Positions 53,775 through 64,000 of a stretch of DNA of 64,000 nt are shown piece by piece. This DNA is from Pseudoalteromonas tunicata (lineage in GTDB: Bacteria > Pseudomonadota > Gammaproteobacteria > Enterobacterales > Alteromonadaceae). The notes beneath the pieces are model-generated. The model was not told the DNA's origin. It worked only from the letters and a program-made list of their open reading frames with translations, and did not search any database. Position 1 is the stretch's first letter. The number at the start of each line of letters is the position of its first letter. The translations under genes and the position numbers were made by a program. The stretch lies in NCBI RefSeq assembly GCF_002310815.1, contig NZ_CP011032.1:1652001-1716000 (forward strand), written 5' to 3'.

Positions 53775-55073
53775 ATGATTATGCTGCTGGAAAAACTATT
53801 CAAAATACGTGAACTGGGTTCGAATGTGCGTACCGAATTGATTGCAGGTCTCACCACGTTTGTGACTATGGTTTACATTGTATTTGTAAATCCACCTATG
53901 CTTGCCGAAGCGGGCATTGACCAAGGTGCGGCGTTTGCTGCAACCTGTATCGCTGCTGCAATTGGTTGTTTTATTATGGGTTTTTGGGCTAATTACCCAC
54001 TTGCTTTGGCACCTGGCATGGGACTTAACGCCTTTTTTACTTATGGTGTGGTGCTTGGCATGGGGCACACTTGGCAAGCGGCGCTTGGTGCGGTGTTTTT
54101 TTCGGGGTGTCTGTTTTTATTATTGAGTTTATTTAAGGTGCGCGAGTGGATCATCAATGCCATTCCGTTAGTGCTTAAACAAGCGATAGCCACTGGTATT
54201 GGTGCTTTTTTGGCGCTAATTGCGCTGAAAAATGCGGGCATTGTGGTGGCAAATCCTGCTACTTTGGTGCAATTGGGTGACATTACGCAAGCTGGACCGT
54301 TACTTGCGATTTTTAGCTTCTTTTTTATTGCGGCTTTATTATATCGCGATATTAAAAGTGGGGTGTTGCTGAGCATTTTAGTGGTGACCTTGATTGCTTT
54401 AGCGCTTGGTTTAGTCCAATACCAAGGTTTAATTGCGCCGCCACCTTCATTAGCGCCTACTTTTTTGCAACTTGATTTTGCTGCTGCACTTGAACTGTCG
54501 ATGTTAAGTGTTATTTTTGCCTTTTTGTTTGTTGATTTATTTGATACATCCGGCACTTTGGTTGCGGTGTCTCAAAAAGCAGGCATTGCCGATGCGCAAG
54601 GTAAAATCCCCCGTTTAGGGCGGGCCTTAAGTGCCGACAGTGCAGCTACGATTGCAGGGGCTACGCTTGGTACGTCTACTACCACTTCGTACATTGAGTC
54701 TGTCGCAGGTGTGTCGGTTGGTGGGCGCACAGGTTTAACTGCGGTGGTGGTTGGTTGCTGCTTTTTAATGATGCTCTTTTTTGCGCCACTTGCAGCTATG
54801 GTACCTGCTTATGCAACTGCGGGGGCGATTTTGTATGTGGCGGTATTGATGCTACAAAATCTTAAGCTCATTGATTGGGATGATATGACCGAAGCGGTGC
54901 CTGTGTGTACGGTGCTTTTAATGACGCCGCTAACATTTTCGATTGCTCATGGTATTTCGTTGGGTTTTATTGCCTATACCGCGATGAAATTACTGTGTGG
55001 TAAACGTCAGGACATCAGTATTTCGGTGTGGATTTTAACGCTGCTCTTTATACTCAAATTTGCATTGTTGTAG
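53775..55073 (+). CDS. NCS2 family purine permease (AzgA-like)
   Basis: The 432-residue protein has about 13 hydrophobic segments and the AzgA-type NCS2 signatures: TELIAGLTTFVTMVYI near the N-terminus, ALAPGMGLNAFFTYG, FLFVDLFDTSGTLVAV and GTSTTTSYIESVAGV. Such proteins take up adenine, guanine or hypoxanthine by proton symport at the inner membrane. The translational start is ATG 53775 or 53781. It stands alone, bounded by terminators on both sides. Confidence 0.92.
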   Translation: MIMLLEKLFKIRELGSNVRTELIAGLTTFVTMVYIVFVNPPMLAEAGIDQGAAFAATCIAAAIGCFIMGFWANYPLALAPGMGLNAFFTYGVVLGMGHTWQAALGAVFFSGCLFLLLSLFKVREWIINAIPLVLKQAIATGIGAFLALIALKNAGIVVANPATLVQLGDITQAGPLLAIFSFFFIAALLYRDIKSGVLLSILVVTLIALALGLVQYQGLIAPPPSLAPTFLQLDFAAALELSMLSVIFAFLFVDLFDTSGTLVAVSQKAGIADAQGKIPRLGRALSADSAATIAGATLGTSTTTSYIESVAGVSVGGRTGLTAVVVGCCFLMMLFFAPLAAMVPAYATAGAILYVAVLMLQNLKLIDWDDMTEAVPVCTVLLMTPLTFSIAHGISLGFIAYTAMKLLCGKRQDISISVWILTLLFILKFALL

Positions 55074-55117
55074 TACATTCGAGCCTTACGCGCTCATAAC
55101 CTGCTTTAGATATTAAA

Positions 55118-55140
55118 ACGCCTGTTAGGTTAACAGGCGT
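55118..55140 (+). terminator. Terminator after the purine permease gene
   Basis: ACGCCTGTTA-GGT-TAACAGGCGT, a perfect 10-bp stem with GTTTGTTT after it. The remaining ~230 bases to the chemoreceptor start show nothing further that I can name. Confidence 0.8.
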
Positions 55141-55374
55141 GTTTGTTTCAGTTGTTCATTTACAATTGTTGTCATTTCAAAACTCGGTTTTTTGCATTAA
55201 ACAAATCAGCTTTTATTGCAAAAATAGCGACAAAATCAGTTTGTTAAATTGTTTTGAGCAATAATTTCTCATCCTTTATACGAAAATGTAATCATATGTA
55301 ATATTTAAGTTATAGGTTTTGATCTCTAATTGGAGTACGTTACGCCGGATTTTTACCAGGCAAGGTACACAGAG

Positions 55375-57357
55375 ATGCGTTTAAAAAATAAATTACTGAT
55401 TTCATTTTTATCTTTGGGGATTATTCCAGCAAGTTTTATCGCAATTAAGGCATTGCTTGTAGCAAGCAATTCTTTAGAGCAGCAAGCGTATAATCAGCTC
55501 ACTTCAATTAAATCGATTAAAAAGGTCCAAATAGAAGACTATTTTGCTAAAAGTCGTGCCGATTTGGCCGTATTAGAACAATATTGGCAAAGTATAGCGA
55601 ATACCAATCAAAGCTTAACTCCTAGTGAAATCGCTCAGCGTAATGATGCCTTTTTTCAGCAATTTATCAACGAGCAAGGTTATTACGATTTTTTTGTCAT
55701 TAATATGACGGGCGACGTGGTGTATACGGTTGCCAAAGAGGCGGATTATCAAAGTAATTTAATAAGTGGGCCTTATGCACGCTCAGGGTTGGCGCAGTTA
55801 TTTAGCAAAGTAACACTTGTCCGCCAAGCGCAACTACTCGATTTTAGCCCCTATGCGCCAAGTAATAACGAACCCGCGGCGTTTATTGGTTTGCCTGTTA
55901 TTGAAGCAGGTAAACAAGTGGCTGTGATTGCGTTGCAACTATCGATAGAAAAAATAAATCATGTGATGCAACAGCGCAATGGCATGGGTGAGACCGGCGA
56001 AAGCTATTTGGTTGGGCCTGATTTAAGAATGCGCTCAGACTCCTTCCTCGACCCAAAAGGTCATTCTGTCATCGCCAGTTTTGCTGGTACAGTGGCAAGA
56101 AATGGGGTTGATACTAAGGCGGTGCGAGAAGGGCTTGAGGGCGTAAGCGCCACTGAGATTGTAATTGATTATAACGGTAACCCAGTATTATCGGCTTATA
56201 CACCAATTGAGTTTATGGGCATGCGCTGGGTATTGCTTGCTGAGATTGATGAAGCTGAGGCGTTTGCACCCGTGGCTAAACTTACGTTTTTAATTGCAAT
56301 GATTGTTTTACTCACTGTATGTGCTGTGGTTGTGGTGACCGTTATGGTGGCTAATTCAATTATTAGGCCGCTTGGTGGTGAACCTAAAACCATGCAGGAA
56401 ATTAGTGAGCGTATTGCGCTGGGCGATTTATCAACCCAGTTTGAACATCAAGGACGACTTTCGGGGGTTTATAAAGCAATGCAGATCATGAGCCAGAACT
56501 TACACAATGTGATAAGTAACATTGTTGATTCAACGGGGCAGCTTTCATCAACAGCGGCACAAACTAGCGCCGCGAGTGTACAAGCTAATTCAAGTCTACA
56601 AGAGCAGCACCTTAATATTGCAAGTGTCACCACTGCAATGCATGAAATGGCCACTACTATTGATGATGTGGCAAATAACGCCCGTAATGTCGCTGACTTA
56701 AGTTTAAGCGCACAATATACCTCAGAAGCTGCGAACAATTGTGTCCGTGATACCATCAATAGCATGCAGCAATTAGCTAATGAAGTTAAGGATGCGGCAG
56801 ACGTGATAAATAACGTAGAAAGCCAGTCGCAAAAAATAGGTTCAGTGCTTGAAGTAATTCAACAAATTGCTGAACAAACCAATCTGTTAGCACTTAATGC
56901 CGCAATTGAAGCTGCAAGGGCTGGCGATCAAGGCCGTGGTTTTGCGGTGGTGGCCGATGAAGTGCGCCAGCTGGCACAAAAAACCCAGCAATCGACCCGT
57001 GATATTGAACAAATGATTGCCGCGCTGCAAACTGGTACATCACAAGCCGTGACCGTAATGAGCAGTGCCACAGCCATTAGTTTATCGACCATTAATAATG
57101 CCACAAGCAGCGCCCATGAAATTTCCCGCAGCTTATCTGAAATTCGAGATATTGCGCAAAATGCACAATTGATAGCCACAGCGGCGCAGCAACAAGCCTG
57201 CACAGCTGAAGAAATTAACCAAAGCATGGAGTCGATTAATCAGGCTGCGGTTGATAATGCGGCTGGGGCTGATCAGGTATCTGCAGCGAGTATTGAGCTT
57301 AATTTATTAGCAGAGCAGCTCAAGCAAGTTACACTGCAGTTTAAACTAACAGCTTAA
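55375..57357 (+). CDS. Methyl-accepting chemotaxis protein (Cache-type sensor)
   Basis: The 660-residue protein has TM1 at about 10-30, a periplasmic dCache-like domain of roughly 270 residues (containing [22 protein letters not shown]), TM2 near 305-325, HAMP, and the cytoplasmic signalling domain. The conserved hairpin tip [26 protein letters not shown] is intact. No C-terminal CheR-binding pentapeptide is seen. ATG 55375 has AAGG nine bases upstream; an in-frame TTG at 55330 is less likely. The ligand is unknown. Confidence 0.93.
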
Positions 57358-57376
57358 GCACTTCTTTTGTATAAAT

Positions 57377-57402
57377 TGCCGATAATGACAGCGTTATCGG
57401 CA
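57377..57402. terminator. Hairpin after the chemoreceptor gene
   Basis: TGCCGATAA / TTATCGGCA 9-bp stem with an 8-base loop, 20 bases past the stop. There is no clear U-tract on the plus strand, so the role as a terminator is uncertain. Confidence 0.45.
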
Positions 57403-57474
57403 TTAAAAAAGGGAAATTTTTTACTTTTAACGCCCGCGTGATAAACTGCGGCTCTTTATTTTGAGCTTGTTGTT

Positions 57475-58548
57475 ATGACCGTCATTTTTGATATTCAGCA
57501 TTTATACTATTTACCGCAATATTTACCCGTGTTAGCTGAGTTAACCAAACATGATGTAGCGTGCCGATTTGTTTTTTATCGCCAAGCTGAGGCCGAGTTA
57601 CAAAAAGTCTGTGAAGAGGTCATTGCCAACGAGCAACTTGATGCCGTGTGGGTTGATAACTGGAGCCAAGCGCTCGCTCATTACACTCGTGAGCAAGCAG
57701 ATTGGCTAGTATTTGGTAATGCAGTCAACGATTTAGACCAATTACACCGCGTCAGTAAAACGGTGTTAATGCAACATGGCATTGGCCCAAAGCAGTGTTA
57801 TTACGATGTATCGGCCAATCCAACAACGGTGCGTTTTGTTGAAGGACAGCACAGATTAAAACGTTTACAAGCCTTATATCCAAACAGCAATTTTGTTGAT
57901 ACCGGATTTGCAAAGTTAGATCCGGCTTTTAATGCACCACACGCTTTATTGACGCTTGAAGCGTTAGGTTTAGACCCTGCAAAACCCACTTTATTATATG
58001 CGCCAACGTTTTATCCAAGCTCAATCGAATGTTTTGCCAAAACATTTGCGCAAGATTTTAGTGAATTTAATATTATTGTTAAACCGCATTTTTTCTCGTT
58101 AAGCAAAGATAAATACCATAAACAACGCCGTTTGCTCCAGCAATGGGCACAAGCCAAAAATGTGTATTTGGCGCCTGTGTCGGACTATAACTTACTGCCA
58201 TTTATGGCGCTGAGCGATGTGATGATTTCAGATGCTTCATCGGCAATTTTTGAGTTTGCGGCGCTTAATAAACCCGTGGTGTGGTGTGATTTTTATAAAT
58301 TACGCTGGAGTTATCGCGGTATTTTTAGTTTTCGCTTTAAACAACGCTTAAATGATGATATTGAGTTTTTTCATCAAATTACCGAGCGAGTTGAACACTA
58401 CCAAGGCTTAAAACAGGCGGTAACCGAAGCGTTTCGCGAGCCGAATAAACTCGCCAGTAAACGGATTGAAATGACAGCGCAATTAGCCGGTGCCACCGAT
58501 GGACAGGTTTCAAAAAGAATTGCTGAATACTTAATAGCCAATACATAG
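57475..58548 (+). CDS. CDP-glycerol glycerophosphotransferase-like (TagB/TagF/SpsB family)
   Basis: The 357-residue protein has the GT-B-like TagF pattern: VLMQHGIGPK near residue 100, VDTGFAKLD, LLYAPTFYPSSIECFAK, IIVKPHFFSLSKDK (the His is expected at the active site) and DVMISDASSAIFEFAALNKPVVWCDF, which corresponds to the CDP-binding SSxxxDF region. There are no TM segments and no fused glycosyltransferase, so it is a minimal enzyme. It would move a glycerophosphate (or related) unit from CDP-glycerol to a glycan or lipid acceptor. It faces the TagD/G1PDH operon across a terminator. Confidence 0.82.
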   Translation: MTVIFDIQHLYYLPQYLPVLAELTKHDVACRFVFYRQAEAELQKVCEEVIANEQLDAVWVDNWSQALAHYTREQADWLVFGNAVNDLDQLHRVSKTVLMQHGIGPKQCYYDVSANPTTVRFVEGQHRLKRLQALYPNSNFVDTGFAKLDPAFNAPHALLTLEALGLDPAKPTLLYAPTFYPSSIECFAKTFAQDFSEFNIIVKPHFFSLSKDKYHKQRRLLQQWAQAKNVYLAPVSDYNLLPFMALSDVMISDASSAIFEFAALNKPVVWCDFYKLRWSYRGIFSFRFKQRLNDDIEFFHQITERVEHYQGLKQAVTEAFREPNKLASKRIEMTAQLAGATDGQVSKRIAEYLIANT

Positions 58549-58571
58549 GCCATATTAACTTTTGGCCTATG
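58544..58571 (+). terminator. Terminator after the TagF-like gene
   Basis: CATAGGCCA / TGGCCTATG stem with a 10-base loop followed by TTTTTATT. It overlaps the last codons and separates this gene from the convergent operon. Confidence 0.82.
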
Positions 58572-58735
58572 TTTTTATTGCGGTTTGTTTAGTATTTCCA
58601 CGACTCACACGAAGCGCAGCCGCTGTAGTGTCGTTATGCTACATAAATCTGCGGCAACGCAGTAAAAATACCAATAAGTCACAATCTTTAAAAAGTCTAT
58701 AACCGAAAAGTTGGCTCGGTCTCGACCCAGGTTTC

Positions 58736-59818
58736 CTAATCAAAACTGTTTACAAACGCTTGATTGAGTAACTCTGGACTGATCCCTGGGTGATTTAAAA
58801 TCGTAATTCGGTCGGGTCGCATTGTGTTGGCAAGAGTCACCGCACAGAGAAAATCACTTTGTGAAATGAGCAGTTGGCTCGGATAAGTCGGTAAGCCGCA
58901 CTGCTTAATGAGGGTAATGATGGCGTCATCAATTTGTGGCTCATCAAGTAGCTTTCGCACCTCGTTAATATATATCGTTGCTAACGCAACTTGCTCGCCA
59001 TGATAACCTTGCCCAAGCGCCAGTTTGTCTAGCGCATGACTAATTAAATGTTCTGCACCACTTGCTGGTCGGCTATCACCAGAAAATCCCATCGATAAGC
59101 CCGAAATTAATAAGCCTTCGGCCACAATTTTTAAATCTGACAGATTGGTGATGTCAAATAGTGGGTTTTTAAATAATACATCGCAGCTGGCACTTGATAA
59201 CAAACGAGCAAAATCATCAACCGGGGTTTGATTGATTTTGTGGGCATATTCCCAGTCCAGTAATGCCGAAGCATTTGAAATTAAATCTCCAAGTCCTGCA
59301 AGGTTGAGCCGTTTAGGGGCTGATATAATTAGCTTTAAGTCGATAAAGACAAAGGTGGCTAATGCCGCAGCGACACTTTGGTTTTGCCCTAATTTGTTTT
59401 TAATAACCGCAACGGGTGAGGTGATGCAATCGCTTGATAAACAAGTAGGAATAATCGCGAAACTCAAATTACGTGTTGTTGCCGCAACTTTACAGACATC
59501 AATCACCTTACCGCCACCAATGGCGACAATTAAATCAATTTGATGATGTGCACATGCGATATCAAGCTTAATACATTCTGCCATTGAATTATCTTCAATC
59601 ACATGGTGCAACACTTGATGCCCCAGTTTTACGTGTGTTGTTATGTCGCTGGCCAGTTTCAATGAACCGCCTTTACCACTTACAATACAAATGTTTTGCA
59701 TGTTTTGTACTTGTAATGTTTCGAGTAATAACTGGGCCGTCTGTTGCTCGTTTTCAATGATTTTTAATACTTTGGGTATATTTAAAAACCGATTGGCAGA
59801 TAATTGAGAGAATTGCAT
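58736..59818 (-). CDS. Archaeal-type sn-glycerol-1-phosphate dehydrogenase-like protein
   Basis: The 360-residue iron-alcohol-dehydrogenase-fold protein has the NAD motif IGGGKVIDVCKVAA, the PTCLSSDCITSPVAVI stretch, LAGLGDLISNASALLDWE (metal ligand Asp), ASGAEHLISHALD (His) and GYHGEQVALATI (His). The GGGKVIDV...SPxAxI...GDLISNxxAxxDW order matches archaeal G1P dehydrogenases better than AraM/EgsA. It would reduce dihydroxyacetone phosphate to sn-glycerol-1-phosphate. It starts four bases after the TagD-like gene, so the two share a transcript. Glycerol dehydrogenase activity is a less likely alternative. Confidence 0.8.
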   Translation of the reverse strand: MQFSQLSANRFLNIPKVLKIIENEQQTAQLLLETLQVQNMQNICIVSGKGGSLKLASDITTHVKLGHQVLHHVIEDNSMAECIKLDIACAHHQIDLIVAIGGGKVIDVCKVAATTRNLSFAIIPTCLSSDCITSPVAVIKNKLGQNQSVAAALATFVFIDLKLIISAPKRLNLAGLGDLISNASALLDWEYAHKINQTPVDDFARLLSSASCDVLFKNPLFDITNLSDLKIVAEGLLISGLSMGFSGDSRPASGAEHLISHALDKLALGQGYHGEQVALATIYINEVRKLLDEPQIDDAIITLIKQCGLPTYPSQLLISQSDFLCAVTLANTMRPDRITILNHPGISPELLNQAFVNSFD

Positions 59819-59822
59819 TCGA

Positions 59823-60242
59823 TTAGCTTTGCTTTATTTGTTTGATAAGAGCTGAGGTGCTGATCCCTTGTGTATAAGGCAGCATAACAATTTCACAGCC
59901 TTGAGCTGCTAAATATTCAGGTGTGCAGCGAATTTGCTCCATATACGAATTTAGCTCCCAATCATCACCATGAACGATTTTAGTAATATTGAATTGCTCA
60001 ATATAAGGTTTGATATCAAATTCATTTGAAATGACTGCTTCATCAACAATATCAAGTGCTTCGATTAGGCGTTTACGGTCGTTTTCATTGATATAGGGAG
60101 TGCGCTTATATTCACCCGTCATTTTGTCGCCATTGACGATAATAAATAGTTTATCGCCCAGCGCTTTTGACTTTTCGAGTAATGTGAGATGCCCTACATG
60201 AAATAAATCAAATACACCTACCACTAAAATATTTTCTGACAT
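59823..60242 (-). CDS. TagD-like glycerol-phosphate cytidylyltransferase
   Basis: The 139-residue nucleotidyltransferase has the HxGH motif in GVFDLFHVGHLTLLEKSKALGD, YKRTPYINENDRKRLIEAL, HGDDWELNSYM and TQGISTSALI, which corresponds to the RTxGISTT motif of TagD. It joins CTP and glycerol phosphate to give CDP-glycerol. Size fits (TagD is about 130). Operon with the downstream G1PDH-like gene means the substrate may be the 1-phosphate enantiomer rather than the usual sn-glycerol-3-phosphate. Confidence 0.86.
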   Translation of the reverse strand: MSENILVVGVFDLFHVGHLTLLEKSKALGDKLFIIVNGDKMTGEYKRTPYINENDRKRLIEALDIVDEAVISNEFDIKPYIEQFNITKIVHGDDWELNSYMEQIRCTPEYLAAQGCEIVMLPYTQGISTSALIKQIKQS

Positions 60243-60311
60243 CTTATATCCCCAATTAAAAACGCCGATTTTATCTCAAAACCTGGCTAAAACCGAACAA
60301 TAAGCAATAAA

Positions 60312-60335
60312 AAAACGCGCTAAATAGCGCGTTTT
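60312..60335 (-). terminator. Terminator after the alpha-glucosidase gene
   Basis: AAAACGCGCTA-AA-TAGCGCGTTTT, a perfect stem with A and T runs on either side, 30 bases after the minus-strand stop. It probably also works on the plus strand, though nothing there needs it. It separates the glucosidase from the TagD-like gene. Confidence 0.88.
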
Positions 60336-60364
60336 GCTCAAGGGAAATCACAATAGATGCTAGA

Positions 60365-61990
60365 TCAGTCGTGTTTTTTTGCAAAATAACAGCCAAACGG
60401 GGGCAGATTGAGCTGATTTTTTACAAGCTGACCACTGTGATGGCTCACATCAGCCAACTCAGTCAGTGAAACTGTTGTTAAATCAAGCGATGCACTTTGT
60501 TCGCTTAAGTTAAAACAACACAAAATAGTGTCATCGCCCGTGCTGCGCCAAAACGCCAGTAACGGCTCAGGGGTATCAATAAACTCAATATCACCCACAA
60601 TTAAAGCTTGATGGTTTTTACGCCAATGTAAAAACTCGCGGAAGCGGTTTAAACACGAATTGAGGTCGGCATTTTGCAAGTCGACACTGTTACTAAGATG
60701 CTGCTTTGCCACAGGTAACCAAGGTTTTTGCGTCGAAAAGCCGGCAAACTCTGCATTATGTTGCCAAGGGTGCGGCGTACGACAGCCATCACGACCTTTA
60801 AAATTTGGCCAAAAAGTGATGCCGTATGGATCTTGTAAATCTTCAAATGCGACATCAGCTTCGGTTAAGCCAAGCTCCTCACCTTGATACATGCATACGC
60901 TGCCTCGTAATGAGCCAAGTAACGCGGTCAGCATTTTTACTTGAGCGTCACTGCGTACGCCATTTTTTGCCCAGCGTGATGCCACGCGTTCAACATCGTG
61001 GTTACTAAAGGCCCAGCATGGCCAGCCTTCAGTCATTTGTTTTTCTAAACCTTGTACTGTTTGGCGAATATAAGCGGCGCTGTAGTCTTTGGTCAGTAGC
61101 TCAAAGCTATACCCCATGTGCAGTTTATTGCCACCTTGGGTGTATTCGGCCATGGTCGCTAGCGAATCTTCAGATGAAATTTCACCAAGAGAAACTGTGC
61201 CAGGATAACGGTCAAGTAGGGCACGAATTTCTGCCATAAAGGCAAGATTTTCAGGTTGTGTATTGTTGTAATAGTGGTACTGAAACGCGTAAGGATTATC
61301 TTCGCTAAAGCCGCGACCTTGGCGTTTATCCACTGGTTTTGCTGGGTTGTCACGCAATTGCGCATCGTGGTAGCAAAAGTTAATCGCATCGAGTCTAAAA
61401 CCATCAACCCCTTTTTTGAGCCAAAACTCGACATTATCGAGTACATGTTGGCGCACATCTGGGTTATGAAAGTTTAAATCTGGCTGTTCAGTTAAAAAAT
61501 TATGCAGATAATATTGTTTACGACGTGGTTCCCATTGCCATGCAGGGCCGCCAAAAATTGATAACCAGTTATTGGGTGCTGTGCCATCTGGTTTTGCATC
61601 GGCCCAAACATACCAGTCTGCTTTATCGTTGGTTTTATCAACGCGGCTCTCACTGAACCAAGCATGTTGATCTGAGGTATGGCTTAATACTTGGTCAATA
61701 ATGATTTTAATATCACGTTGGTGCGCTTTATCAATCAGCTCATCAAAATCGGCTAAAGTGCCAAAAAGAGGGTCGATATCACGGTAATCGCTGATGTCGT
61801 AACCAAAATCTTTCATTGGTGACTTAAAAAAAGGCGATACCCAAATTGCATCAACACCTAGCCCTTTTATGTAGTCAAGCTCGGCAATGATCCCTGGAAT
61901 ATCACCGATACCGTCATGGTTTGAATCTTGAAAACTACGAGGGTAGATTTGATAAATTACCGCACCTTGCCACCATTGAAGCTTGGCCAT
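60365..61990 (-). CDS. GH13 alpha-glucosidase / oligo-1,6-glucosidase type
   Basis: The 541-residue (beta/alpha)8 enzyme opens WWQGAVIYQIYPRSF and has the calcium-site NHDGIGD. Catalytic residues are the nucleophile Asp in GFRLDAINF (~199), acid/base Glu in LGEISSED (~270) and the transition-state Asp in FSNHDVERV (~332). It hydrolyses maltose or isomaltose-type glucosides; no signal peptide, so it acts in the cytoplasm on imported sugars. ATG 61990 has GGAGAG upstream; the longer frame to 62113 has no site and crosses an operator. It is divergent from the TonB-dependent receptor at 62698. Confidence 0.92.
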   Translation of the reverse strand: MAKLQWWQGAVIYQIYPRSFQDSNHDGIGDIPGIIAELDYIKGLGVDAIWVSPFFKSPMKDFGYDISDYRDIDPLFGTLADFDELIDKAHQRDIKIIIDQVLSHTSDQHAWFSESRVDKTNDKADWYVWADAKPDGTAPNNWLSIFGGPAWQWEPRRKQYYLHNFLTEQPDLNFHNPDVRQHVLDNVEFWLKKGVDGFRLDAINFCYHDAQLRDNPAKPVDKRQGRGFSEDNPYAFQYHYYNNTQPENLAFMAEIRALLDRYPGTVSLGEISSEDSLATMAEYTQGGNKLHMGYSFELLTKDYSAAYIRQTVQGLEKQMTEGWPCWAFSNHDVERVASRWAKNGVRSDAQVKMLTALLGSLRGSVCMYQGEELGLTEADVAFEDLQDPYGITFWPNFKGRDGCRTPHPWQHNAEFAGFSTQKPWLPVAKQHLSNSVDLQNADLNSCLNRFREFLHWRKNHQALIVGDIEFIDTPEPLLAFWRSTGDDTILCCFNLSEQSASLDLTTVSLTELADVSHHSGQLVKNQLNLPPFGCYFAKKHD

Positions 61991-62097
61991 GATCTCTCCA
62001 AAACCGTAAAGGGTTTTTAATTTAATAAAACAGATAAGCGGTCTGCGCCGCGAAATTAGTAAAAAGCATACGTTATCCAATTTTTTCTGTAAAAGGC

Positions 62098-62113
62098 ATG
62101 CATACGTATGCAT
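62098..62113. promoter_or_regulatory. LacI-family-like operator palindrome, glucosidase side
   Basis: ATGCATACGTATGCAT is a perfect 16-bp palindrome with the central CG typical of LacI/GalR-family sites. It lies 108 bases upstream of the alpha-glucosidase start. A degenerate copy (AGCATACGTTA) is at about 62066-62076. Confidence 0.75.
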
Positions 62114-62547
62114 TTGAAAAGAGTATAAATAAGGATTTTGAAGGGAAGCAAAATCGTCTGTTTGGCTTAGTTTTTATGGTGACGACCATCTGCTTTACCA
62201 ATTTTTCACTGTTAGCCGCATTATTGTGCTTAAAGGTCTTATTTTTATCTTTACGTTGCTAACGATTCAAGCTGGTGCGGGCAGTGCACGAGTTTGGTGC
62301 AAGAACTTTGGTTTGGTATGACCAATTTACAAAAATCTAAATGAAGTTAATTTTTATCGTTTTATTAACATTGGGTAGGTGCATGCTTGCCAAGAAAAAA
62401 TAAATTTAACGCTATTTTAGTCTGAAAAACCCTCGCAAGTTCCCATTCTATAAGATTATAACTCAAACATGGCTGTGTTCCTTTATATTACGGTCACTTA
62501 AGCTACTCTGTGTAAACAAAGTGTAAAATAATTCACCTTTGTTTTTT

Positions 62548-62561
62548 TGAATACGTATGCA
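62548..62561. promoter_or_regulatory. LacI-family-like operator palindrome, receptor side
   Basis: TGAATACGTATGCA matches the centre of the palindrome at 62098 with one base changed. It lies 137 bases upstream of the receptor start, so one regulator (not in the window) may co-control the divergent pair, as MalR/SusR-type repressors do for maltose uptake genes. Confidence 0.7.
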
Positions 62562-62697
62562 GTCAGTTGTATGACAAATGTGGTAGGCGTTACTATTTTT
62601 AATGACAACAAAGGCGACCCAGATTGGTGCAATCGCTACGCTTTAAACCGCATCAATCATGGGGCTATTACAAAATAGTCAATCGGGATAAAACATT

Positions 62698-64000
62698 ATG
62701 TCTAAATTTAAGCCAAGTATGCTAACACTGGCACTTGTTTCTGCAGGATTCTCTTCTTTATCAGCATTTGCTGCTGATGAAGTGAAAAAAGACGAAGCGC
62801 TCAATCAAGAAAACGTAGAAGTTATTGAAGTACGTGGTATGCGCCGCAGTATTGTTGAGTCAATCAACGTTAAACGTTTTGCAACAAACGTGGTTGAGTC
62901 GATTTCAGCTGAAGATATCGGTAAATTACCAGATTCATCAATTGCGGAATCAATTGCCCGTTTACCTGGCTTGGCGGCCCAACGCCTAGACGGTCGTGCT
63001 AGCCGCGTATCAATTCGTGGTTTTGGTGAAAACGAAAGTGGCACCACCTTTAACGGCCGTGAACAAGTTTCTATCAGTGACAACCGTGGGGTTGAGTTTG
63101 ACCTCTACCCATCAGAAATCATGAGCGGTGTGACTGTGTATAAAACACCCAATGCGACACTTGAAGGTGAAGGCATTGCCGGTGTAATTGATATGCAAAC
63201 CATTAAACCGTTATCAAAAGACGGCCAAACAGTGCAAATCAATACCCAGTTTGAACAAACAAGTTTTGATAAGCTTAACCCAGATGGCGAAGACTCTGGC
63301 TTTCGTGGTACTTTTTCGTACGTTGACCAGTTTGCTGATAATACCTTAGGTGTGGCATTTGCTTATTCAAGCATGTCGTCGCCAAACCAAGAAAAACGTT
63401 GGAATTCTTGGGGTTACCCTGAGTTTACCCACAATGGAAAACCACTTTCTATTTTAGGTGGTGCTAAACCATTTGTACGTTCGTCAGAACTTGAACGTGA
63501 TTCTGTGATGCTAGTTGTTGAAGCGGCTCCAACCGATAAATTAAAACTGACCTTCGATGCGCTTTATGTAGATTTCTTAGATACCAAAACATTGCGTGGG
63601 ATTGAAATTCCATTTGCATGGGGTCAAGGTTCAATTAAAGAAGAGAATGCGACCGTTGATCCAGCAACAGGTTTTGTCACCAGTGCGTTAACTGAAGGCG
63701 AGCGTGTTGTGGTGCGCAATGATCACGAAGAGCGTGACGCAACACTTAAATCATTTGGTTTAAATACTGAGTACCAAGTGAATGATACGTGGTCTTTAGA
63801 CCTTGATGTCAGCTATTCAAAAGTAGAACGCAAAATTTGGAGTATGGAAAGCTACTCGGGTACAGGGCGTGGTAGTGCCGTAGGTATTGCAGATAACATT
63901 GGTTATCAGTTTAACTCAGGCAATACAGGTGCAATGTTTACTCATCAACTTGATTATAGCGATTACAACTTAATTCAATTAGGTGGTCCGCTTAGTTGGG
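62698..64000 (+). CDS. TonB-dependent receptor, N-terminal part (cut by window edge)
   Basis: The visible ~434 residues start MSKFKPSMLTLALVSAGFSSLSAFAAD (signal peptide). They contain a TonB-box-like VEVIEVRGMRR, the plug signatures SIAESIARLPGLAAQR and VSIRGFGENES with TVYKTPNATLEGEGIAGVIDMQT, and early barrel strands (FSYVDQFADNTLGVAFAYSS). This is the large TonB-dependent receptor type common in oligotrophs. Pairing with the GH13 gene and shared operators suggests uptake of maltodextrins or related alpha-glucans across the outer membrane. The C-terminal barrel lies outside. Confidence 0.93.
   Translation, partial: MSKFKPSMLTLALVSAGFSSLSAFAADEVKKDEALNQENVEVIEVRGMRRSIVESINVKRFATNVVESISAEDIGKLPDSSIAESIARLPGLAAQRLDGRASRVSIRGFGENESGTTFNGREQVSISDNRGVEFDLYPSEIMSGVTVYKTPNATLEGEGIAGVIDMQTIKPLSKDGQTVQINTQFEQTSFDKLNPDGEDSGFRGTFSYVDQFADNTLGVAFAYSSMSSPNQEKRWNSWGYPEFTHNGKPLSILGGAKPFVRSSELERDSVMLVVEAAPTDKLKLTFDALYVDFLDTKTLRGIEIPFAWGQGSIKEENATVDPATGFVTSALTEGERVVVRNDHEERDATLKSFGLNTEYQVNDTWSLDLDVSYSKVERKIWSMESYSGTGRGSAVGIADNIGYQFNSGNTGAMFTHQLDYSDYNLIQLGGPLSW

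Follow-up and report, generated by a model that had tools for sequence, protein, structure and literature searches.

A three-gene locus in the window (the whole 64,000-nucleotide stretch of Pseudoalteromonas tunicata DNA analyzed) probably encodes a route to surface phosphoglycerol via CDP-1-glycerol. Judged from sequence, the cytidylyltransferase (CT) and dehydrogenase (DH) genes would form a two-gene CDP-1-glycerol supply cassette, and the adjoining phosphotransferase (GPT) would transfer sn-glycerol-1-phosphate (G1P) onto a surface glycan. In the pathway that we infer, with its substrates, chirality, reaction direction and acceptor, DH would reduce achiral dihydroxyacetone phosphate (DHAP) at C2 to G1P, CT would convert G1P and CTP to CDP-1-glycerol, and GPT would pass sn-glycerol-1-phosphate from CDP to the glycan, the product being a phosphoglycerol substituent with a chirality opposite to that of the usual CDP-glycerol product. 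A literature search found no bacterial CDP-1-glycerol pathway (weak evidence, as subscription papers were mostly outside its coverage) and 0 papers with the term “CDP-1-glycerol”; “CDP-1-Gro” is in use as a term in PMC8262930, PMC8587909 and PMC11666461.

Organization of the locus and its possible surface-glycan context

The three open reading frames reported in the first-pass annotation are all present (Table 1), with CT and DH as the tight pair described there and GPT facing this pair in convergent orientation. The gap between GPT and DH opens with a hairpin-like and then T-rich sequence (by eye; a candidate terminator only). The terminator-like hairpin at 60312-60335 is one of 8 consensus matches in the region vs. 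a shuffled mean of 4.0. The seven Pfam-checked proteins in 53775-63999 are a permease, MCP, GPT, DH, CT, GH13 and a TonB plug.

Table 1. Coordinates of the locus features within the window
Feature	Positions	Strand	Description
GPT	57475-58548	+	357 aa; one-domain TagF-type CDP-glycerol glycerophosphotransferase (predicted); PF04464
GPT-DH gap	58549-58735		187 bases between convergent stops
DH	58736-59818	-	360 aa; G1PDH-like metal-dependent dehydrogenase; D178, H257, H273
CT-DH intergenic gap	59819-59822	-	4 bases, CT stop to DH start
CT (CT' subfamily)	59823-60242	-	139 aa; TagD/HldE/PCYT2-related cytidylyltransferase; PF01467
Terminator-like hairpin	60312-60335	-	GH13 gene to CT, one strand; consensus match only

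Residues 109-353 of GPT match PF04464 (E 8.9e-15; 54.9 bits, cut-off 22.1). Its predicted fold is of the two-lobe TagF type, with the conserved His/Ser motifs present and TagF as the best match of the model. As first described, GPT is a minimal, single-domain member of the family, and it passes the gathering score. An association with a nearby EPS locus, also proposed from the window, was set aside, as the neighborhood is not conserved in Pseudoalteromonas sp. NBT06-2: the syntenic region there retains the GH13 and permease neighbors and has no EPS-type locus (ORFs by eye, in part Pfam-checked). Of the 20 relatives fetched, 10 have GPT in the vicinity of slmA-dfp-radC-mutM-coaD-waaA block genes, and in 5 of those 10 the Kdo transferase gene is among them. 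An LPS core or capsule-like glycan seems more likely as the acceptor than the neighboring EPS.

Family assignment of CT and DH

CT matches PF01467 (E 5.4e-18) and has the nucleotidyltransferase motifs HVGH (residues 15-18, HxGH) and ISTS (127-130). Its score with the TagD model TIGR01518 is 76.5 bits (cut-off 165.4), slightly exceeded by the 79.8 bits obtained, also below cut-off, with TIGR02199 (heptose-1-phosphate adenylyltransferase); seven CTs from GPT loci lacking DH reach 95.6-138 bits with TIGR01518, above the window CT yet below the cut-off as well. An insertion with invariant Y100/Q103 marks the CT' type (20 rows vs. 20 TagD-type and 9 fused CTs). The top solved relative is 3elb, an ethanolamine-phosphate cytidylyltransferase; also among the solved relatives is 5x3d, whose chain is named phosphoenolpyruvate phosphomutase and which we take to be the CT domain of Fom1. 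By these comparisons CT belongs to a cytidylyltransferase subfamily (CT') distinct from TagD and is not itself a TagD.

DH matches PF13685 (Fe-ADH_2, E 2.3e-22); it scores 227.3 bits with NF002022, the NCBIfam equivalog model of G1P dehydrogenase (G1PDH), below the cut-off of 413 bits, and 19.6 of 423.7 bits with the Fe-ADH model TIGR03405. The DH tree, built with FastTree only and with several long-branch joins flagged, groups DH with archaeal and bacterial G1PDHs, apart from 27 glycerol-dehydrogenase-like rows; for 10/10 loci of the latter kind that were checked, glycerol dehydrogenase models give the higher score and G1PDH models the lower. On this tree DH is a member of the G1PDH group within a separate proteobacterial clade; of the “archaeal-type G1PDH” originally named, the G1PDH part is kept, but the clade is bacterial, not archaeal. 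A recent transfer of DH from archaea was considered and is unsupported, as DH sits in this bacterial clade (with the same caution as to the flagged joins).

The three metal-ligand motifs of DH align, as claimed earlier, with those of the M. jannaschii enzyme and other solved G1PDHs, but D178, H257 and H273, presumably the metal ligands, are identical in 130/130 aligned rows, glycerol dehydrogenases among them, and therefore do not discriminate between G1PDH and GldA. The SPVAVI motif is present in DH but fails as the archaeal signature it had been taken for: at position 138, 91% of 23 archaeal rows have Ser, whereas the 20 window-clade rows have Val, as do all 26 glycerol-dehydrogenase-like rows. 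Shared by DH and archaeal G1PDHs are S148, A185, D188, P251/S253/G254/E256, H261, R334 and R337, a set mostly missing from GldA-like rows; DH departs from the archaeal consensus at 129 and 131 (S and C vs. H and G), 138, 203, 245, 246, 288 and some other positions. Among solved structures the one closest to DH is 3ce9, which bears the title glycerol dehydrogenase.

Partner exchange and recurrence across genomes

A survey of 247 genomes of the order (GPT called at E<=1e-30) found GPT in 30, including the window's own, and in 29/29 of the remaining genomes another cytidylyltransferase lies near GPT (28 within 331 bases, one at 2.1 kb), of which 20 are single-domain TagD-type and 9 are fused. The DH profile scores 504.8 bits in the window's genome and at most 95 in the rest of the 247; for the CT protein the values are 303.2 and at most 81 bits. 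From outside this draw, complete three-gene sets come from Pseudoalteromonas sp. NBT06-2 (CT 83%, GPT 63%, DH 57% identity) and a Shewanella MAG (CT 53%, GPT 53%, DH 40%), in both of which the CT and DH ORFs as listed abut, and a CT+DH pair comes from Ramlibacter (CT 53%, DH 33%). The check for co-occurrence of the three families thus came out positive. Mapping the CT'+DH state onto the tree of GPT requires 3 changes, each forced by starred branches. The Fisher test (2e-4; 3/3 vs. 0/29) ignores relatedness and includes the NBT06-2 and Shewanella sets, which were found via DH. CT'+DH stands in place of TagD-type partners near one transferase family.

Beyond these sets, at least 120 metagenomic CT' matches include many at 53-64% identity; among the matches listed, some are named as Bacteroidota (Brumimicrobium, Sphingobacterium, Aequorivita and Flammeovirga) and one as Stutzerimonas xanthomarina (55%). 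Equal-sized metagenomic contigs (7998, 22624 and 4189 bases) for CT' and DH proteins suggest three more linked pairs. Of 398 Pseudomonadota genomes searched with the CT' profile, only that of the window matched, apart from a single weak hit of 105 bits; of 198 Bacteroidota genomes, none matched CT' at E<=1e-28 (a search run without a positive control). Carriage on mobile elements was tried as an explanation and rejected: IMG/VR yielded no relative by the DH profile, and the matches in plasmid records (11 for CT, 8 for DH) and phages (2 for CT) are all below 60% identity.

The DH family itself keeps varied company. Of 80 DH loci, 22 carry a same-strand nucleotidyltransferase gene no more than 500 bases from DH, either CT' (3) or LicC-like and unrelated to CT' (19). 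In 10/80 the DH relative adjoins a HAD gene and the locus yields neither a CT' nor a LicC-like match, which indicates that DH relatives have other roles as well.

Genomic background and alternative explanations

A GpsA-type gene is present in the window's genome (C1:3234261, 166.8 bits), so a CT using G3P would require no extra dehydrogenase; no second TagD-like gene was recognized in the genome. We favor the reading that G1P is made specifically to serve a CDP-glycerol-type transferase because of this GpsA-type gene, a genome without PcrB (GGGP synthase) matches, the place of DH among G1PDHs, the exchange of TagD-type partners under one GPT (three changes on its tree), the recurrent sets, and the 22/80 DH loci with a nucleotidyltransferase partner. 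The claim, made already in the first-pass annotation, gains from co-conservation; it stays a probable reading, since sequence reveals neither chirality nor substrate.

A rather unlikely alternative is a different CDP-alcohol donor, such as CDP-2-glycerol or CDP-tetritol: DH would reduce dihydroxyacetone, erythrulose phosphate or the keto precursor of some other polyol, and the corresponding alcohol phosphate would be activated by CT'. The score of DH under the G1PDH equivalog cut-off and the divergence of CT' from TagD would fit this, as would the pneumococcal 23F locus, which has wchX, gtp1 (a putative glycerol-2-phosphate dehydrogenase), gtp2 and gtp3 according to PMC3493582, and which is resembled by DH + LicC-like + HAD + PF04464 sets at two of our loci (L034 and L017). 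However, one-step DHAP reduction cannot yield glycerol-2-phosphate, no HAD (Gtp3-like) or LicC-like family is found among the seven neighboring proteins checked, the GPT family is accompanied by single-domain TagD-type CTs in 20/29 relatives, and the G1PDH-type motif set is kept in DH. It appears quite improbable that CT' makes ordinary CDP-3-glycerol from G3P with DH as an accessory enzyme in the recycling or balance of glycerol phosphate or NAD(P)H. The GpsA-type gene is compatible with this, and glycerol-phosphate cytidylyltransferases can be promiscuous: Cps3B/Cps7B work in vitro with either enantiomer of GroP, Gro3P giving the larger amount of product (PMC8262930), and chirality is therefore not strictly fixed by TagD-type enzymes. 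Such a role leaves unexplained why CT' is unlike TagD and why DH is missing from the 29 GPT genomes with other CTs yet present in 3/3 CT' sets.

Two other uses of the pair deserve little credence. Supply of G1P for an archaeal-type ether lipid, like that of AraM in Bacillus, is highly improbable given the cytidylyltransferase gene so close to DH, and lipid use of G1P was rejected on the 0 matches to GGGP synthase (PcrB, PF01884) in the genome, the control being positive in 7/14 genomes including B. subtilis. E. coli is reported to make G1P without AraM (PMC13400652, PMC7852524), so a G1P source need not be an AraM-like gene, a point against the favored reading. Remoter still is a phosphonate pathway, with DH as phosphonoacetaldehyde reductase and CT' as phosphonate cytidylyltransferase; 5x3d among the solved relatives of CT speaks for it, but the score of DH with TIGR03405 speaks against it, and the PEP mutase superfamily matches lie far from the locus (C1:2134408, C2:24974) and may be lyases, the family being matched in 11/14 control genomes as well, which makes that search uninformative.

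Implications and comparison with known systems

A broader proposal is tentative, being plausible but somewhat short of probable: a bacterial CDP-1-glycerol pathway in which a mobile CT+G1PDH cassette, on at least two or three occasions, has taken over from the ordinary CDP-3-glycerol supply near one transferase and so inverted the handedness of a surface phosphoglycerol. In Bacillota, Actinomycetota and Chloroflexota the dehydrogenase family would have acquired a second, non-homologous (LicC-like) nucleotidyltransferase as its partner, so that G1P would serve bacteria generally as a building block of their surfaces and would not be a lipid curiosity. In the lipid divide, G1P is assigned to the archaeal side; if our reading is true, bacterial G1PDH has a further function that lies outside membrane lipids, which could help to explain the scattered G1PDH genes in bacteria. 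It would also mean that one transferase family naturally makes two surface modifications that are mirror images of each other, and would provide an enzyme for CDP-1-glycerol production and a G1P source in cells whose PlsY may accept either enantiomer (PMC13400652).

The glycerophosphoinositol route of Archaeoglobus fulgidus leads to a solute, not a surface glycan. Its CTP:G1P cytidylyltransferase activity would give the same CDP-1-glycerol, and is archaeal, with the enzyme described as unidentified in PMC8262930. AraM of B. subtilis and EgsA of archaea resemble DH in family, metal ligands, motif set and predicted fold, whereas DH is partnered by a cytidylyltransferase gene, in a genome with no GGGP synthase match, and falls in a separate proteobacterial clade. 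The pneumococcal gtp1-gtp2-gtp3 + wchX system (CDP-2-glycerol) likewise brings together, at a locus for a surface glycan, a dehydrogenase, a nucleotidyltransferase and a glycerol phosphotransferase (PMC3493582), but the window has no Gtp2/Gtp3-type gene among the seven checked proteins, and its CT is of the TagD fold. With the TagD/TagB/TagF pathway of teichoic acids (CDP-3-glycerol), represented in Gram-negatives by Cps3B/Cps3D and Cps7B/Cps7D of Actinobacillus pleuropneumoniae, the locus has in common a CTP:glycerol-phosphate cytidylyltransferase-type gene and a TagF-type transferase; it differs in the G1PDH-type dehydrogenase paired with CT, in the CT subfamily and in the one-domain GPT.

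Organization of the gene set

All three open reading frames from which the first-pass annotation had proposed a CDP-1-glycerol route were found with exactly the boundaries it had assigned. GPT (a one-domain TagF-type CDP-glycerol glycerophosphotransferase, the single PF04464 match in this genome) is convergent, across a gap of 187 bases, with a pair of genes 4 bases apart encoding a cytidylyltransferase (CT) and a dehydrogenase resembling glycerol-1-phosphate dehydrogenase (DH; G1PDH-like). CT is separated from the GH13 gene by a same-strand terminator-like hairpin, recognized by consensus match alone (8 sites of this kind vs. 4.0 expected in shuffles). The GH13 enzyme scored 837 bits with the NCBI "beta-galactosidase BglA" model (cut-off 900), and its homologue in Pseudoalteromonas sp. 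NBT06-2 (locus L001) is syntenic and 78% identical. The EPS-type locus encodes UDP-glucose dehydrogenase, ManC-like, PGM/PMM, initiating sugar transferase, polysaccharide export, Wzz/tyrosine-kinase-like and CpsB/CapC proteins.

Features of the gene set and its surroundings (window positions)
Feature	Position	Strand	Remark
EPS-type (exopolysaccharide) locus	28836-51756 (~28.8-51.8 kb)		part of its proteins checked
Xanthine/uracil-type permease	53775		flank
Chemotaxis receptor	55330		flank
GPT	57475-58548	+	PF04464
DH	58736-59818	-	G1PDH-like dehydrogenase
CT	59823-60242	-	PF01467
GH13 enzyme	60365-62113		flank
TonB-receptor start	62698		flank

A distinct cytidylyltransferase subfamily

CT is a PF01467 protein, but it scored below the cut-offs of both the TagD model (76.5 of 165.4 bits) and the heptose adenylyltransferase model (79.8 of 181.5 bits). 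With the TagD model, three proteins of the CT subfamily (CT'; from the window, a Shewanella MAG, L002, and Ramlibacter, L005) scored 64.9-76.5 bits, and seven CTs of DH-less GPT loci scored 95.6-138 bits, all under the cut-off too. In a comparison of 20 CT' rows (A2 alignment, partners mostly unknown) with 20 TagD-type CTs and 9 fused ones, V7, N37-G38, Y45 and H91 set CT' apart from both groups, as does an insertion, missing from most of their members, in which Y100 and Q103 are invariant; Y123 separates CT' from TagD-type CTs only, Tyr being present also in fused CTs. Since the other four of the five PF01467 proteins of this genome look, from frame size, like housekeeping NadD-, CoaD-, HldE- and RibF-type enzymes, no second TagD-like gene was recognized among these matches.

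Proposed exchange of partners beside GPT

A single set of 247 genomes drawn from the order was searched for all three proteins. DH profile matches (E <= 1e-20) occurred in 25 genomes, exceeding 95 bits only in the window's own (504.8), which was also the only one matched at E <= 1e-30 among 295 genomes of the family. CT matched 50 genomes (E <= 1e-15; best outside the window's genome, 80.1 bits), and GPT was found in 30, its own included. In all 29 other GPT loci (L111-L139) a CT lies close to GPT (<= 331 bases in 28; 2.1 kb in L111, measured on the longer locus L171), 20 of these CTs being single-domain TagD-type and 9 fused to an N-terminal part of ~150 residues; a DH gene was absent from all 29 within ~1.5 kb on each side (11-17 kb in total for 20 loci). 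DH adjoins CT' in all four CT' loci for which DNA was analyzed (window, L001, L002, L005), a count biased by the last three having been found through DH.

The fused CTs (283-304 aa; L119, L120, L122, L125, L128, L129, L133, L135, L136) belong to genomes forming one clade on the GPT tree; their extra part appears HIT-like by eye, and gave no further Pfam match in the one protein checked. With the CT' profile (E <= 1e-6), the L001 and L005 genomes each yielded only CT' and one HldE-size match, and the 5.9-Mb Shewanella MAG, which may be mixed, yielded seven. In the Ramlibacter surface-glycan locus (L005:9454-12998) GPT is replaced, and CT'-DH is paired with another type of CDP-alcohol user, a CDP-alcohol phosphatidyltransferase, beside a flippase-like gene.

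In the GPT phylogeny (quick IQ-TREE of 49 rows, partner unknown for 17 rows; INDEPENDENCE) three changes are required for the CT'+DH label, and starred branches force all of them; without the 17 rows, the three known states need four. The Shewanella GPT groups with f6-family GPTs that are linked to TagD, and those of the window and NBT06-2 are not mutual nearest rows. Because the three changes may alternatively represent one gain with losses, and because of the 17 rows of unknown partner, this pattern is suggestive, but not proof, of repeated swaps of CT'+DH near GPT. The window and L001 share synteny of GH13, CT', DH, GPT and permease, with 83% identity for CT vs. 57% for DH; DH thus evolves faster or was exchanged.

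Other partners of the dehydrogenase family

Among the best 80 of at least 502 loci with a DH relative in the genome_contigs collection (23 archaeal by title), same-strand neighbors within 500 bases of DH (seeds from L017, L169 and L005) comprised CT' in 3 loci, a LicC-like nucleotidyltransferase, probably CTP-using, in 19 loci, and a HAD gene in a further 11 loci, one of which (L017, Arenibacter) has an additional LicC-like gene further away. LicC-like genes beside DH were found in, among others, Thermoactinomycetaceae, Cohnella, Fictibacillus, Solirubrobacteraceae and Chloroflexota, and several of these loci also have CDP-alcohol phosphatidyltransferase-like genes (Pfam-confirmed in L006 and L010); the sets in the first three taxa (L006:8317-13738, L007, L009, L010, L012, L013) possibly represent a phospholipid or solute pathway based on sn-glycerol-1-phosphate (G1P). 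Outside the best 80, Streptomyces fungicidicus plasmid p1 (L169:5054-7612) carries a phosphocholine-cytidylyltransferase-family (LicC-like) gene, a DH-like gene and a CDP-alcohol phosphatidyltransferase in series, with hpnC/D/E a few kb beyond; excerpts of a 2026 synteny study describe a Streptomyces cluster of araM, nucleotidyltransferase and CDP-alcohol phosphatidyltransferase (PMC13118837). All ten DHs beside a HAD phosphatase-like gene in L020, L022, L026, L028, L029, L045, L047, L049, L066 and L075 have Lys for Arg at 334 and Phe/Tyr for Arg at 337, hinting at a different substrate.

Discussion

A GpsA-type gene in this genome would supply sn-glycerol-3-phosphate (G3P), so that an ordinary CDP-3-glycerol system would need only TagD, as the 29 relatives suggest; an added dehydrogenase would be sensible if CT' requires a substrate other than G3P. 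DH would then convert dihydroxyacetone phosphate to G1P in a single step, CT' would form CDP-1-glycerol, and GPT would transfer sn-glycerol-1-phosphate to an acceptor. The swap pattern, CT' with DH vs. TagD-type or fused CTs without DH, strengthens the core of the CDP-1-glycerol interpretation, which as a whole is partly supported, the chirality of the product being an inference. Lipid use of G1P is known from Bacillus; it is unlikely here, since GGGP synthase gave no match in the window's genome.

The first-pass annotation had also placed the product on a surface glycan near an EPS locus. Such a locus does lie nearby, but the gene context of relatives (neighbor families named by Pfam matches of single representatives) points instead to the LPS core or a surface-attached capsule: 10 of the 20 longer relatives carry one or more members of a block of slmA, dfp, radC, mutM, a coaD-like gene and Kdo transferase, the last in 5 of these 10, and Kdo kinase, GT9 and Wzi genes also recur.

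Our literature search found no bacterial CDP-1-glycerol pathway. According to excerpts of the papers cited here, two Gram-negative glycerol-phosphate cytidylyltransferases can use either enantiomer but form more product from Gro3P (PMC8262930); fukutin uses CDP-1-Gro in vitro (PMC8587909), and Cps7C requires CDP-3-Gro (PMC11666461). Bacterial G1PDH homologues are scattered (PMC5059525, with Gammaproteobacteria included; PMC6431249), and excerpts of both papers discuss them as lipid genes. PlsY and PlsC are reported to accept both enantiomers, and G1PDH/AraM is described as the sole known mechanism of G1P synthesis, E. coli necessarily having another (PMC13400652; the statement on E. coli also in PMC7852524).

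For the DH family in general, the most serious alternative is a CDP-2-glycerol route, which we take the pneumococcal gtp1-gtp2-gtp3 and wchX set to be, although no Gtp2- or Gtp3-type gene was seen beside the CT-DH pair of the window. LicC-like nucleotidyltransferase, HAD, G1PDH-like DH and PF04464-like genes occur together in Arenibacter (L017:8440-13485) and Sporosarcina (L034:9989-14016). These two loci resemble the pneumococcal set, as excerpted from PMC3493582, which suggests that Gtp1 may belong to their DH family.
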